Part shown: positions 5,688 to 60,646 of the stretch, in pieces
Numbering within the stretch: position 1 is the first letter of the stretch
Layout of the letters: each line of letters opens with the position of its first letter
Source of the DNA: Nitrosopumilus sp.
Lineage (GTDB): Archaea > Thermoproteota > Nitrososphaeria > Nitrososphaerales > Nitrosopumilaceae
Direction: 5' to 3'
DNA: 64,000 bases
NCBI RefSeq assembly: GCF_025698945.1
Contig: NZ_JAILWM010000001.1
Location: 62,001-126,000, forward strand
Made by a program: the position numbers and the translations under genes
Notes under the pieces: model-generated
Database searches by the model: none
What the model saw: the letters and a program-made list of their open reading frames with translations, nothing else
What the model was told of the DNA's origin: nothing

Positions 5688-6344
5688 ATGGCTAGGCTAA
5701 TAGATCCTTCTTTGCAAAAACTCTCCTTTATCATGGGCGAAATGGGTGATATGGTTACCGAATCTATTTCCCTTGCTATTGACTCCTACCTTGATGGTAC
5801 AAACACTATGGATAAAGTACTTGCTTTATCTGATTCTATTCGTTCAAAGTATTTTGAAGTTGAAGACTTGACATTTGACATGCTTTTAAAATATCAACCA
5901 GTTGCAGATGATTTCAGATTAATTCGATCATCTACAGAAATTTCTTATGCATTTTCAAGATTTGGAAGATATGCATATGATATCACTCAAGTTCGAGATT
6001 TATTCGGTGATGTGTCTGAATGCAAAAATGCCTCTTTGGTTGAATCATCAAAAAAAGTCAAACATATGATCAAAGAAGCAGTTTTGTCATTTGCAGAGCT
6101 TGATGTAAGAAAAGCAATCAAAATTCGTGAAGATGAAAAGGTAATTGATCAAATTTACAAAGAGCGACTTCCCAAACTCATTGAATCAAAAAATACCAAA
6201 TGTGCTTTAGCAGAAGCCCTACTATTGAGATATCTTGAAAGAATTGGAGATCATGCAGTGTTCATGAGTGATGCCATTAATTACATTGTTACTGGAAAAC
6301 ATAGACCTAGTGAGGAAAGGATAGCTTCTCATACTAAAAATTAA
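5688..6344 (+). CDS. phoU: Phosphate transport regulator PhoU
   Basis: This 218-aa all-helical protein has two PhoU-type three-helix repeats (about 10-95 and 115-205). It carries the usual acidic metal-binding helices, for example LLLRYLERIGDHAVFMSDAI near the C terminus. PhoU proteins restrain Pst activity and relay phosphate status; the partner here is most likely PstB. The ATG abuts the pstB stop with no gap. It lacks the N-terminal DNA-binding domain seen in the divergent PhoU-like gene at 1787-2830. Confidence 0.93.
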   Translation: MARLIDPSLQKLSFIMGEMGDMVTESISLAIDSYLDGTNTMDKVLALSDSIRSKYFEVEDLTFDMLLKYQPVADDFRLIRSSTEISYAFSRFGRYAYDITQVRDLFGDVSECKNASLVESSKKVKHMIKEAVLSFAELDVRKAIKIREDEKVIDQIYKERLPKLIESKNTKCALAEALLLRYLERIGDHAVFMSDAINYIVTGKHRPSEERIASHTKN

Positions 6345-6398
6345 TCCTAATTTTAAATCATTAACTAATCGTAATTTTTACATTTTTTAGAATAAGAT

Positions 6399-24445: not shown

Positions 24446-24546
24446 GCAGAGGTATCGAAGCCCGGTCAACCGAGAGGGACTCAAGATCTTCTAAATAGGA
24501 AATCCCTTCTCTCAGGAGTTCGTGGGTTCAAATCCCACCCTCTGCA
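24446..24546 (+). tRNA. tRNA-Leu(CAA) with a short intron
   Basis: Acceptor GCAGAGG (24446-24452) pairs with CCTCTGC (24539-24545), discriminator A. The T-arm is GTGGG-TTCAAAT-CCCAC (24522-24538), with a class II variable arm CTC-TCAG-GAG. The anticodon stem AGGGA (24475-24479) pairs with TCCCT (24503-24507) only if an intron of about 16 nt (near 24486-24501) is removed after position 37. The anticodon is CAA (24482-24484). CCA is not encoded. Confidence 0.92.
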
Positions 24547-40972: not shown

Positions 40973-41099
40973 TGGTCCCAAGCGAAGGAATTGAACCTTC
41001 GACAACCCGGTTTCTGTATGCCTGATATGCTGTTTTTCGGTCAGCCATCTAAAGCCAACAACTACAGCCGGAAGCTCTACCAGGCTGAGCTAGCTTGGG
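40973..41099 (-). tRNA. tRNA-Tyr(GTA) with an intron of about 50 nt
   Basis: On the minus strand the acceptor CCCAAGC (41093-41099) pairs with GCTTGGG, giving the C1-G72 pair typical of archaeal tRNA-Tyr. The discriminator is A and CCA appears encoded (40973-40975). D-arm GCTC/GAGC, T-arm GAAGG-TTCAATT-CCTTC, and anticodon stem TCCGG/CCGGG. Anticodon GTA is at 41063-41065. The intron spans about 41012-41061, after position 37. Its 3' part TACAG can pair with CTGTA of the anticodon loop, as in a (relaxed) bulge-helix-bulge splice site. Confidence 0.93.
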
Positions 41100-57954: not shown

Positions 57955-59052
57955 TTACAAAACTGGTTTTATTATGCCTGAAATTAGTGCATGATCTGCT
58001 ATAGTTAAGGCTACAAGTGAGTCTACTACTGGTGGTGCTCTAGGCACTACACATGGATCATGTCTTCCTTTCACCTGAAGTATGGCTTCTTTCTTTGTTT
58101 TAATATCTACTGTACTTTGTTTTTGTGCAATTGATGATGCTGGCTTGAATGCAATTCTCATGGTAATTGGCATTCCGTTTGAAATTCCCCCCAGAATGCC
58201 TCCTGAATTATTTGTCTTTGTAGTGATTTTCCCTTTCTTTATTGTATAAAGATCATTATTCTCTGAGCCAAATAATTCTGAACCTCTAAATCCTGAACCA
58301 AATTCTATTCCTTTGACAGATGGAATTGAAAATATTGCTTTACTCAAATCTGATTCTAATGAGCTAAAGATTGGTTCTCCTAATCCAACTGGAACTTTAG
58401 TTGTAGTTGATTCAATTATTCCTCCAAGTGAATCTCCCTTCTTTCTAGCATTCAATATTGCTTCTCTCATCTTCTTTGCAGTTTTATCTTCAGGACATCT
58501 TACCTCATTTCTATAAATTGATTTTATCATTTTTTCATTAAATTCTCTTTCCATCTTTATTTTTCCAATCTGTGTTGTATAGGAATTTGTCTCAACACCT
58601 AATGCTACTTTGAGTAATTTTCTTGCAATTGCACCGCCCATAACATGCGTTGCCGTTAATCTTCCTGAAAATCTTCCTCCTCCTCTATGATCATTATAGT
58701 GATTATACTTTATCATTGCAGTGTAATCTGAATGACCCGGTCTAAGCTTTGTTCTCAAGTTTTCATAATCTTTTGATTTTTGATCACTATTCCAAATTAT
58801 CATTGTGATTGGAGCTCCTGTTGTGTGTCCTCTAAAAACCCCTGAAATAATTTCTACAACATCACCTTCTTTTCTCTGTGTTGAAATTAAATTCTGACCC
58901 GGCTTTCTCAGATCCAGCATTTTTTGAATGTCTTTTTCATCAATTTCTAAACCTGCTGGGCATCCATCTAAAACAGCACCAATTGATTTTCCATGACTTT
59001 CACCAAAACTTGTTAGAACAAGGCGCTGGCCAATTGAACTTCCGGGCAACAT
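57955..59052 (-). CDS. aroC: Chorismate synthase AroC
   Basis: This FMN-dependent lyase makes chorismate from EPSP. It has 365 aa and starts MLPGSSIGQRLVLTSFGESHG, with PGHSDYTAMIKYNHYNDHRGGGRFSGR (in parts) and GRHDPCVVPRAPPV. It has its own TATA box (ATTATAAG on the minus strand, 59073-59080) about 25 bp before the ATG, so it can be transcribed separately from aroA upstream. It ends 4 bp before the mutase-aminotransferase gene. Confidence 0.96.
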   Translation of the reverse strand: MLPGSSIGQRLVLTSFGESHGKSIGAVLDGCPAGLEIDEKDIQKMLDLRKPGQNLISTQRKEGDVVEIISGVFRGHTTGAPITMIIWNSDQKSKDYENLRTKLRPGHSDYTAMIKYNHYNDHRGGGRFSGRLTATHVMGGAIARKLLKVALGVETNSYTTQIGKIKMEREFNEKMIKSIYRNEVRCPEDKTAKKMREAILNARKKGDSLGGIIESTTTKVPVGLGEPIFSSLESDLSKAIFSIPSVKGIEFGSGFRGSELFGSENNDLYTIKKGKITTKTNNSGGILGGISNGMPITMRIAFKPASSIAQKQSTVDIKTKKEAILQVKGRHDPCVVPRAPPVVDSLVALTIADHALISGIIKPVL

Positions 59053-59072
59053 TCAAACAAAGTTAAATGATG

Positions 59073-59080
59073 CTTATAAT
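59073..59080 (-). promoter_or_regulatory. TATA box of aroC
   Basis: ATTATAAG on the minus strand is centred about 25 bp before the aroC ATG (59052). It implies a leaderless aroC transcript independent of aroA. Confidence 0.5.
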
Positions 59081-59257
59081 TCCTCATTCTGTATTTTTTA
59101 CAATTTTTAAGCTGAAAGATTCCATGTAAGCCTATTCATGACTGAATAAAATTTATAAAAAATACTATAATTTAATGAAATAATTATAATATAATCTTAA
59201 ATATAATAATAACATATATGATATATGCGAAATCGTGTAAATTCTAACAAATAGTTT

Positions 59258-59341
59258 GCGCGGCTCTGCGAAAAAGACATGTTATCTACGCAAAAGCGTT
59301 GTGGGTGAGGAGAATGCTTTTCACTCTATACAGAGTCGCGC
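59258..59341 (+). ncRNA. Structured non-coding RNA candidate between aroA and aroC
   Basis: GC-rich island in AT-rich DNA. GCGCGGCTCTG (59258-59268) pairs over 11 bp with CAGAGTCGCGC (59331-59341). Inside lie a hairpin ACGC-AAAA-GCGT (59288-59299) and a second hairpin GTGAGGAG-AATG-CTTTTCAC (59305-59324). Three pairs are G-U on the plus strand and would be A-C mismatches on the minus strand, so the plus strand is the RNA. TATA-like CATATATG (59213-59220) and ATATATGC (59221-59228) lie upstream and CTTTT follows the closing stem. It matches no family I know. The rest of the 325-bp gap (59053-59377) holds AT-rich DNA and the aroC promoter. Confidence 0.6.
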
Positions 59342-59377
59342 CTTTTACCCTTAAAGTTAATTTTTTGAAAAATATTT

Positions 59378-60646
59378 TTACTGACTGTGTATTTTAGCCC
59401 CTAGTCGATTCATTTCTGAAATAAAATCTGGATATGATACATTCACTGATTCTGGATCTGTAATTATACAATCCCCAACAAACATTCCTGCAATACAGAA
59501 TGCCATGAATAATCTATGATCATTTTCTGAATTTAATTTAGCTCCAACAAGTTTTTCTGACGATTCTAAAACTAATCCGTCTTCGTTTTCTTGAATCTTG
59601 ATTCCTATTTTTACTAACTCTCTTGCAATTATTGCAATTCTATCTGTTTCTTTTAGTCTTGCATGTTTTACATTTACAATCTCTATTGGCGTTGATGATT
59701 TTAATGCTAGAATTGAAAGTGGAGGAAGAAGATCTGGGGAGTTACTCAAATCAAATTTACCACCTCTTAATTTTTCAGGAGATTCAATCTTGATTTGCTC
59801 ATCGTCCATCATTATAGTTACCCCTAATTGTTCAAGTATGTCAATAAATACCTCATCACCTTGTGGTAAATTTCCAATATTACCTTTGATTGTTACATCT
59901 TTACCATTTAACACTACAGCTGATAGTAGTAATGCTAGACTTGAAAAATCAATTGGAACTACAAATGTGGCACTGTTGTAAATTTGTGGAGAAATATTGT
60001 ATCTTTTGTAAGGGATTGATGTTTGAACAGAGACTCCGAACTTTCTCATAGTTGCAATTGTTGCATCAAGATATGGTTTTGAAACTAGATTTCCTTCAAT
60101 TGTTAAATTGATTCCTTTATCAGTTAAAGGGGCACAAATTAACAAAGATGAAATGAATTGACTAGAAAAATTTCCTGGAATAGATACATTGCCACCTGTT
60201 ATTTTTCCTTTGATTGTAATTGGTGGATTACCATTAGTTGATGTACAATGTGCTCCGATATTAGTTAGTGCATCTAATAGAGGTTGCATTGGTCTTTTTT
60301 GCAAACTTGCATCTCCTGTCAATGTAATCTCTTGTGAAAATAAACTTGCAATTCCTGAGGCTATTCTTATAGTGGTTCCTGAGTTTTCAGTGTTGATTTC
60401 GGGAACTTTTGTGCTTAAATTAATCGGATTTTTGACAATTATTGATGAATTACTGGTTTCTATCTCTGCTCCAAATTTCCTACATGCTTCTATTGTCGCC
60501 CTAGTATCTGCAGATAGAAGAACATTCTCCACCTTACTATTATTTCCAGCAAGTGATGCGAGAAAGATTGCTCTATGTGTGTAACTTTTGTTTGCTGGAC
60601 AAATAATTTCTCCTGTGATGCTTGATTTTTCTATCTTACAACTCAT
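59378..60646 (-). CDS. aroA: EPSP synthase AroA
   Basis: This 422-aa enzyme transfers enolpyruvate from PEP to shikimate-3-phosphate. Signatures are CPANKSYTHRAIFLASLAG, ENSGTTIRIASGIASLF, GDASLQKRPMQPLLDAL, the PEP-site FSSQFISSLLIC and KHARLKETDRIAII. It extends 11 bp past the shikimate kinase stop and is followed by the 325-bp gap before aroC. Confidence 0.96.
   Translation of the reverse strand: MSCKIEKSSITGEIICPANKSYTHRAIFLASLAGNNSKVENVLLSADTRATIEACRKFGAEIETSNSSIIVKNPINLSTKVPEINTENSGTTIRIASGIASLFSQEITLTGDASLQKRPMQPLLDALTNIGAHCTSTNGNPPITIKGKITGGNVSIPGNFSSQFISSLLICAPLTDKGINLTIEGNLVSKPYLDATIATMRKFGVSVQTSIPYKRYNISPQIYNSATFVVPIDFSSLALLLSAVVLNGKDVTIKGNIGNLPQGDEVFIDILEQLGVTIMMDDEQIKIESPEKLRGGKFDLSNSPDLLPPLSILALKSSTPIEIVNVKHARLKETDRIAIIARELVKIGIKIQENEDGLVLESSEKLVGAKLNSENDHRLFMAFCIAGMFVGDCIITDPESVNVSYPDFISEMNRLGAKIHSQ

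Follow-up and report, generated by a model that had tools for sequence, protein, structure and literature searches.

The window, by which we mean the whole 64,000-nt stretch of Nitrosopumilus DNA analysed here, carries aroC (57955-59052) and aroA (59378-60646) on its minus strand. Between them, on the plus strand, lies an 84-nt sequence (59258-59341), the core of what is well supported, as far as sequence can tell, as a stand-alone gene for a structured non-coding RNA (ncRNA) with its own promoter. The plus-strand fold of the core has an energy of -34.8 kcal/mol (z -4.6), which none of 200 shuffled sequences equalled, and the minus strand folds less well (-27.1 kcal/mol, z -3.6). The first-pass annotation had described an 11-bp closing stem with two internal hairpins, and these are present where it had placed them. 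It had also seen G-U pairs on the plus strand, correctly, but the copy in the window has four (59263/59336, 59304/59325, 59309/59320 and 59310/59319) and not three. The TATA-like box upstream (59197-59203) and the T-run downstream (59361-59366) are there as well, and the fold does stop short of the 3' end of aroA, 36 nt before the last base of that gene (59378). The extent needed revision: the 84-nt core is real, but the conserved unit is larger: it begins with the promoter (about 59190), takes in a leader hairpin and extends to about 59351, with the T-run in addition. This hairpin, which competes with the closing stem, had been missed. At the aro locus, conservation stays at about 0.8-0.97 between the promoter and about 59351, and drops to about 0.6 in the spacer (59092-59143). 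The transcribed region is predicted to span roughly 59224-59366, or about 140 nt (Table 1).

Table 1. Features of the predicted ncRNA gene, in coordinates of the window.
Feature	Position	Strand	Remarks
TATA-like box TTAAATA, own promoter	59197-59203	+	spacing to P1 conserved
Predicted transcription start region TATATG	59222-59227	+	spacing from TATA about 25-28 nt, inferred; TATG/AATG conserved in both genus groups
Leader hairpin P0	59235-59261	+	arms 59235-59243 / 59253-59261; 97.2% of cells paired, 83 sequences
P1 closing stem, 5' arm	59258-59268	+	98.9% paired (68 sequences); 6 of 11 pairs changed on both sides
Junction J1/2, CGAAAAAnACAUGUUAU	59269-59285	+	nearly invariant in the Nitrosopumilus/Nitrosarchaeum group (alignments A1, A4)
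Hairpin P2	59286-59301	+	arms 59286-59291 / 59296-59301; 6 of 6 pairs changed on both sides, 88.9% paired
Hairpin P3, loop AAUG	59303-59326	+	arms 59303-59312 / 59317-59326; 97.6% paired, 5 of 10 pairs changed on both sides
Junction J3/1, UAUA	59327-59330	+	invariant
P1 closing stem, 3' arm	59331-59341	+	covariation with the 5' arm (68 sequences)
3' tail CCUUUUAYC ... UUUUUU, presumed terminator	59342-59366	+	conserved to about 59351; T-run 59361-59366 in most copies

Two further stretches of the intergenic region deserve mention. The sequence TTTTTTGAAAAATATTTT at 59361-59378, between the ends of the ncRNA gene and aroA, has T-runs on both strands and may be a shared two-way terminator; the two genes appear to end, from opposite sides, in a common T/A-rich terminator region, and to overlap hardly at all. 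A second conserved block (TGATG.TTATAATTCCTCATTCT) is found at 59066-59091, just upstream of aroC. A similar block of the TTATAAGCATCAT type persists in relatives that have no ncRNA, and the block in the window is thus probably the promoter of aroC itself.

A covariance check in related genomes, suggested in the first-pass annotation, establishes the structure as far as sequence comparison can. An alignment of 53 distinct cores gives P1 with 11 bp, P2 with 6 bp and P3 with 10 bp, with 95.7% of the cells paired and double changes in 13 pairs against 3.8 in shuffles. With 68 homologous sequences 96.2% of the cells are paired, and double-sided compensatory changes are seen in 17 of the 27 pairs and in 199 cells, where the cells of such a table are not independent events. 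None of 500 shuffles reached this level of covariation, and slid controls were far below it. Alignment A6 follows the structure of model R1, to which it was fitted, and its counts lean towards that structure; alignments made with MAFFT only (A1 and A4) agree with the picture that it gives. At the paired positions of P1, P2 and P3 there are 213 G-U cells and 11 A-C cells, and the ncRNA is therefore read on the plus strand, the strand that had been assigned earlier from the G-U pairs.

In a blastn search of 60 relatives with a 161-nt query, the ncRNA turned up in 22 further genomes, all of the genus to which the window belongs, and an AroA search gave 80 loci from named records, more than half of them carrying it. 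With a covariance model, whose E-values are rough, 103 of 400 genomes of the order were positive, 102 of them in the family of the window. The carriers span five genera of this family, including Nitrosotalea (genus names were taken from named loci), and each genome has one copy, with the exception of one that has two matches, both at contig ends. A second model (R2, 68 sequences), used on class-wide and phylum-wide samples (400 and 398 genomes), added no new genus, and no homologues were found in other families in these samples; a whole-genome search scores few candidates per genome, and very divergent copies may be missed. A match of 27 bits in another family, beside an APS kinase gene (L153), is no more than chance would give among 400 genomes, and it is absent with R2.

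The ncRNA of Nitrosotalea (genus g28) has diverged further, scoring about 45-64 bits with the first model, and sits at another locus. There it adjoins sir2, with a tRNase Z-like gene beyond; on the other flank is a gene for a membrane-protein-like or an RNA-binding protein, and in one genome an HxlR-type regulator. On one contig (genome G228) the ncRNA lies near 219 kb and aroA near 721 kb, and the AroA tree places the record JAGWFT010000001.1 with Candidatus Nitrosotalea. The genes around the ncRNA in a Nitrosotalea-type sequence (L142, 1-4001) and its relatives encode tRNase Z, an RNA-binding protein, a LigT-type RNA ligase/phosphoesterase and Sir2. A sigma-70 promoter scan is uninformative for archaea. 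The distance from the start of the string TAAATA to P1 is 60 nt in 31 of 34 aligned intergenic regions of the Nitrosopumilus/Nitrosarchaeum type, a nearer match to the string having been picked up in the other three, and 62 nt in 24 of 25 copies of the Nitrosotalea type. From these spacings, 60 nt at the aro locus and 62 nt at the sir2 locus, the promoter travels with the ncRNA as a unit. A covarying structure and a promoter of its own, two marks of an autonomous ncRNA gene, have thus both been found. As Nitrosotalea carries the ncRNA with its promoter elsewhere, dependence on aroA or aroC is unlikely, and on the comparison of loci the gene is independent of the aro locus. This also bears on three points raised at the first reading: the ncRNA is not always found between aroA and aroC, since the Nitrosotalea copy lies beside sir2, hundreds of kb from aroA; a role tied to the 3' ends of aroA finds no support, both on that account and from the apparent near absence of overlap with the end of aroA in the sequence; and the proposal that the RNA could act in trans is supported.

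The gap between aroA and aroC is about 330 nt with the ncRNA and mostly about 115-180 nt without it, and in one Nitrosarchaeum locus (L078, 6267-6320) just the last part of the ncRNA, its 3' end, remains; the shorter gap and this remnant together indicate that the unit was lost as a block. A decayed copy with indels (38 bits) is found in a Nitrosopumilus (L067, around 6280-6370; L152, 1968-2048), and in this case as in L078 the gene is apparently in the course of being lost. In sampled relatives without the ncRNA, from other genera of the family, neither the aro nor the sir2 locus is occupied (full model, no filters; best score 12 bits). On the AroA tree the carrier label needs 9 changes, at least 6 of them forced by well-supported branches, far fewer than the 21.6 of shuffles, which fits a largely vertical descent in which changes, plausibly losses, occurred repeatedly. 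Having been lost several times, the gene would not be essential in all lineages. Three loci labelled as KSB1 bacterium or Nitrososphaeraceae (L036, L079 and L093) have both an AroA and an ncRNA of the Nitrosopumilus group, and these bins are therefore probably mislabelled or mixed.

The leader hairpin P0 adds a second layer to the fold. Four nucleotides (59258-59261) belong both to its 3' arm and to the 5' arm of P1, and P0 and P1 can therefore not fully coexist. The P0 cells of 83 sequences hold 113 G-U against 13 A-C, a bias that speaks for an RNA hairpin rather than a DNA operator. The pair 59235-59261 is GC in 42 and AU in 29 of these sequences, and position 59261 covaries with both 59235 in P0 and 59338 in P1: the three read G-C-G in 42/83 and A-U-A in 28/83, and A-C-G, with an A-C mismatch at 59235-59261, in 11/83. 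For the most part this switch is one change between the genus groups. Within the Nitrosopumilus type there are only three C-to-U changes, on separate branches of the AroA tree, each accompanied by A at 59235 (Fisher p 0.012, with no correction for relatedness). When transcripts of increasing length are folded at minimum energy, P0 is present as far as about 59335 and P1 appears from 59341; at full length P1 is strongly favoured, with -38.3 kcal/mol (59224-59341) compared with -8.8 for P0 on its own (59224-59265). We think that P0 is probably a guide for co-transcriptional folding, or a switch. It would form first during transcription and keep the 5' arm of P1 occupied while the 3' arm is still being made, to be displaced by P1 afterwards, much as the transient 5' hairpin H1 of E. 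coli SRP RNA rearranges later (PMC6954663); alternatively, the P0 and P1 states could themselves act as a switch.

The ncRNA does not fall into the known classes with which it was compared. Rfam 15 gave no match over it at the gathering score, nor at E 10, and ARAGORN and Rfam find no tRNA over it (the only Rfam matches in the window are two tRNAs elsewhere). By inspection, the RUGAUGA and CUGA boxes of C/D sRNAs are absent from the consensus, P1 is followed by CCUUUUAYC with no ACA, and no pocket flanks an upper stem as in an H/ACA sRNA. The first-pass annotation had judged the RNA to be none of these three, and the comparisons agree with it. The genome has its archaeal RNase P RNA (RF00373) at G000:C1:184998-185278 and its archaeal SRP RNA (RF01857) on contig C5. 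One copy per genome speaks against the end of a mobile element or a repeat, including the transposon end that had been considered earlier, and viral contigs contain no exact match to the P3 motif. Nor is it a short ORF: the AUG of the P3 loop is AAG in many copies, and indels do not come in threes. Literature searches found no description of this ncRNA. Elsewhere in the window there are tRNA matches at 24446-24546 (plus strand, 101 nt) and 40976-41099 (minus strand, 124 nt) that ARAGORN missed in its bacterial mode, and they are probably intron-containing archaeal tRNAs.

What has been kept across genera gives some indication of the role. The strongly conserved tip of P3, GAGAAUGCUUUU, is retained together with GCGAAAAA, ACAU..GU and UAUACAG, and J1/2 of Nitrosotalea largely keeps GCGAAAAA and ACAU-GU. 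The P3 tip and the junction strands are thus maintained, and the sole long unpaired stretch with the potential of an antisense guide drifts from genus to genus, which suggests a protein-binding or tertiary core rather than a guide. We infer that this is a new family of trans-acting archaeal ncRNA, probably bound by protein. The mature form would be a three-way junction of P1, P2 and P3 with the junction strands GCGAAAAA...ACAU..GUU and UAUA, and the RNA would work in trans and would most likely serve a small RNA-protein particle as its scaffold. On balance we favour an autonomous gene for a trans-acting ncRNA of about 140 nt, probably such a scaffold, with staged or switched folding of P0 and P1. 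A stronger version, that the RNA represents a new class in archaea and is the core of an RNA-protein particle of ammonia oxidisers, and that its 5' leader has been selected to compete with the closing stem in staged or switched folding, we put forward only tentatively.

A different role would be that of a base-pairing regulatory sRNA, whose unpaired ACAUGUUAUC pairs with mRNAs and blocks their translation or changes their stability. The stretch is almost invariant in the Nitrosopumilus/Nitrosarchaeum group and unpaired in the conserved fold, and its complement GAUAACAUGU contains an AUG, but GATAACATGT occurs just 3-10 times per genome, the ncRNA gene itself included, and 30 sites in ten genomes have no gene start in common, the shared ones lying inside genes and mostly antisense. 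In Nitrosotalea, moreover, the stretch has become roughly AYAU(A/G)GU(A/U)(A/G)A, and we regard this role as unlikely. Many archaeal RNAs of similar size are guides, and a small, structured, single-copy RNA could be an atypical H/ACA-like or C/D-like guide for modification of rRNA or tRNA. Against this stand the missing C/D boxes, the missing ACA after the stem and the lack of an Rfam match even at E 10, and the best duplexes of the unpaired segments with the 23S rRNA of the genome were no better than shuffled (a comparison limited to 23S), which makes a guide very improbable.

Four of the five carrier genera have the ncRNA between aroA and aroC, which could also suggest a cis element of the aro operon, be it a riboswitch or leader of aroC on the minus strand, or an antisense or 3'-end element of aroA. 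This is largely refuted, and we find it scarcely credible: the RNA occupies two unrelated loci, with a different orientation to its neighbours in Nitrosotalea, at the aro locus transcription of the plus strand would lead into convergent genes, the conserved G-U pairs exclude a fold of the minus strand, and many relatives keep aroA and aroC without the ncRNA. Finally, P0 and P1 are mutually exclusive and covary separately, as would be expected if they were an on/off switch of a free-standing RNA under the control of a ligand or protein, but P1 is so favoured at full length that a strong effector would be needed, and there is no downstream gene to control; we give this idea little credence. The probable scaffold of a small particle, as set out above, is the reading that we favour.

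Ammonia-oxidising archaea are among the most abundant cells of the ocean, and literature searches returned almost nothing on their ncRNAs. At least five genera have a single-copy ncRNA that covariation supports; its coordinates, promoter and fold are at hand, which makes its transcript, its partners and the effect of its deletion directly testable. Archaeal trans-acting sRNAs from intergenic regions, for example those of Methanosarcina and Haloferax, are short, have their own promoter and a U-run, and are confined to a single lineage. The ncRNA resembles them as a short intergenic predicted transcript with its own promoter and U-run in one archaeal lineage, but it differs in its strong covariation, its three-way junction with invariant strands and its competing leader hairpin, and we found no sequence relation to them. 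It can also be compared to Tan1, a structured ncRNA of marine Thalassoarchaea found by RNA-seq (PMC5069720), in being a lineage-specific structured archaeal RNA with no assigned function, but by its description Tan1 is 229 nt long and belongs to another phylum. The closest parallel to the folding is E. coli SRP RNA, where the 5' hairpin H1 can likewise sequester the 5' arm of a long closing helix until the 3' arm has been made (PMC6954663). That is a different RNA, the SRP RNA of this genome being encoded elsewhere, and the folding role of P0 is a proposed one; with its separate covariation, P0 would be an unusual natural case of a competing folding intermediate of a stand-alone RNA that is apparently under selection.
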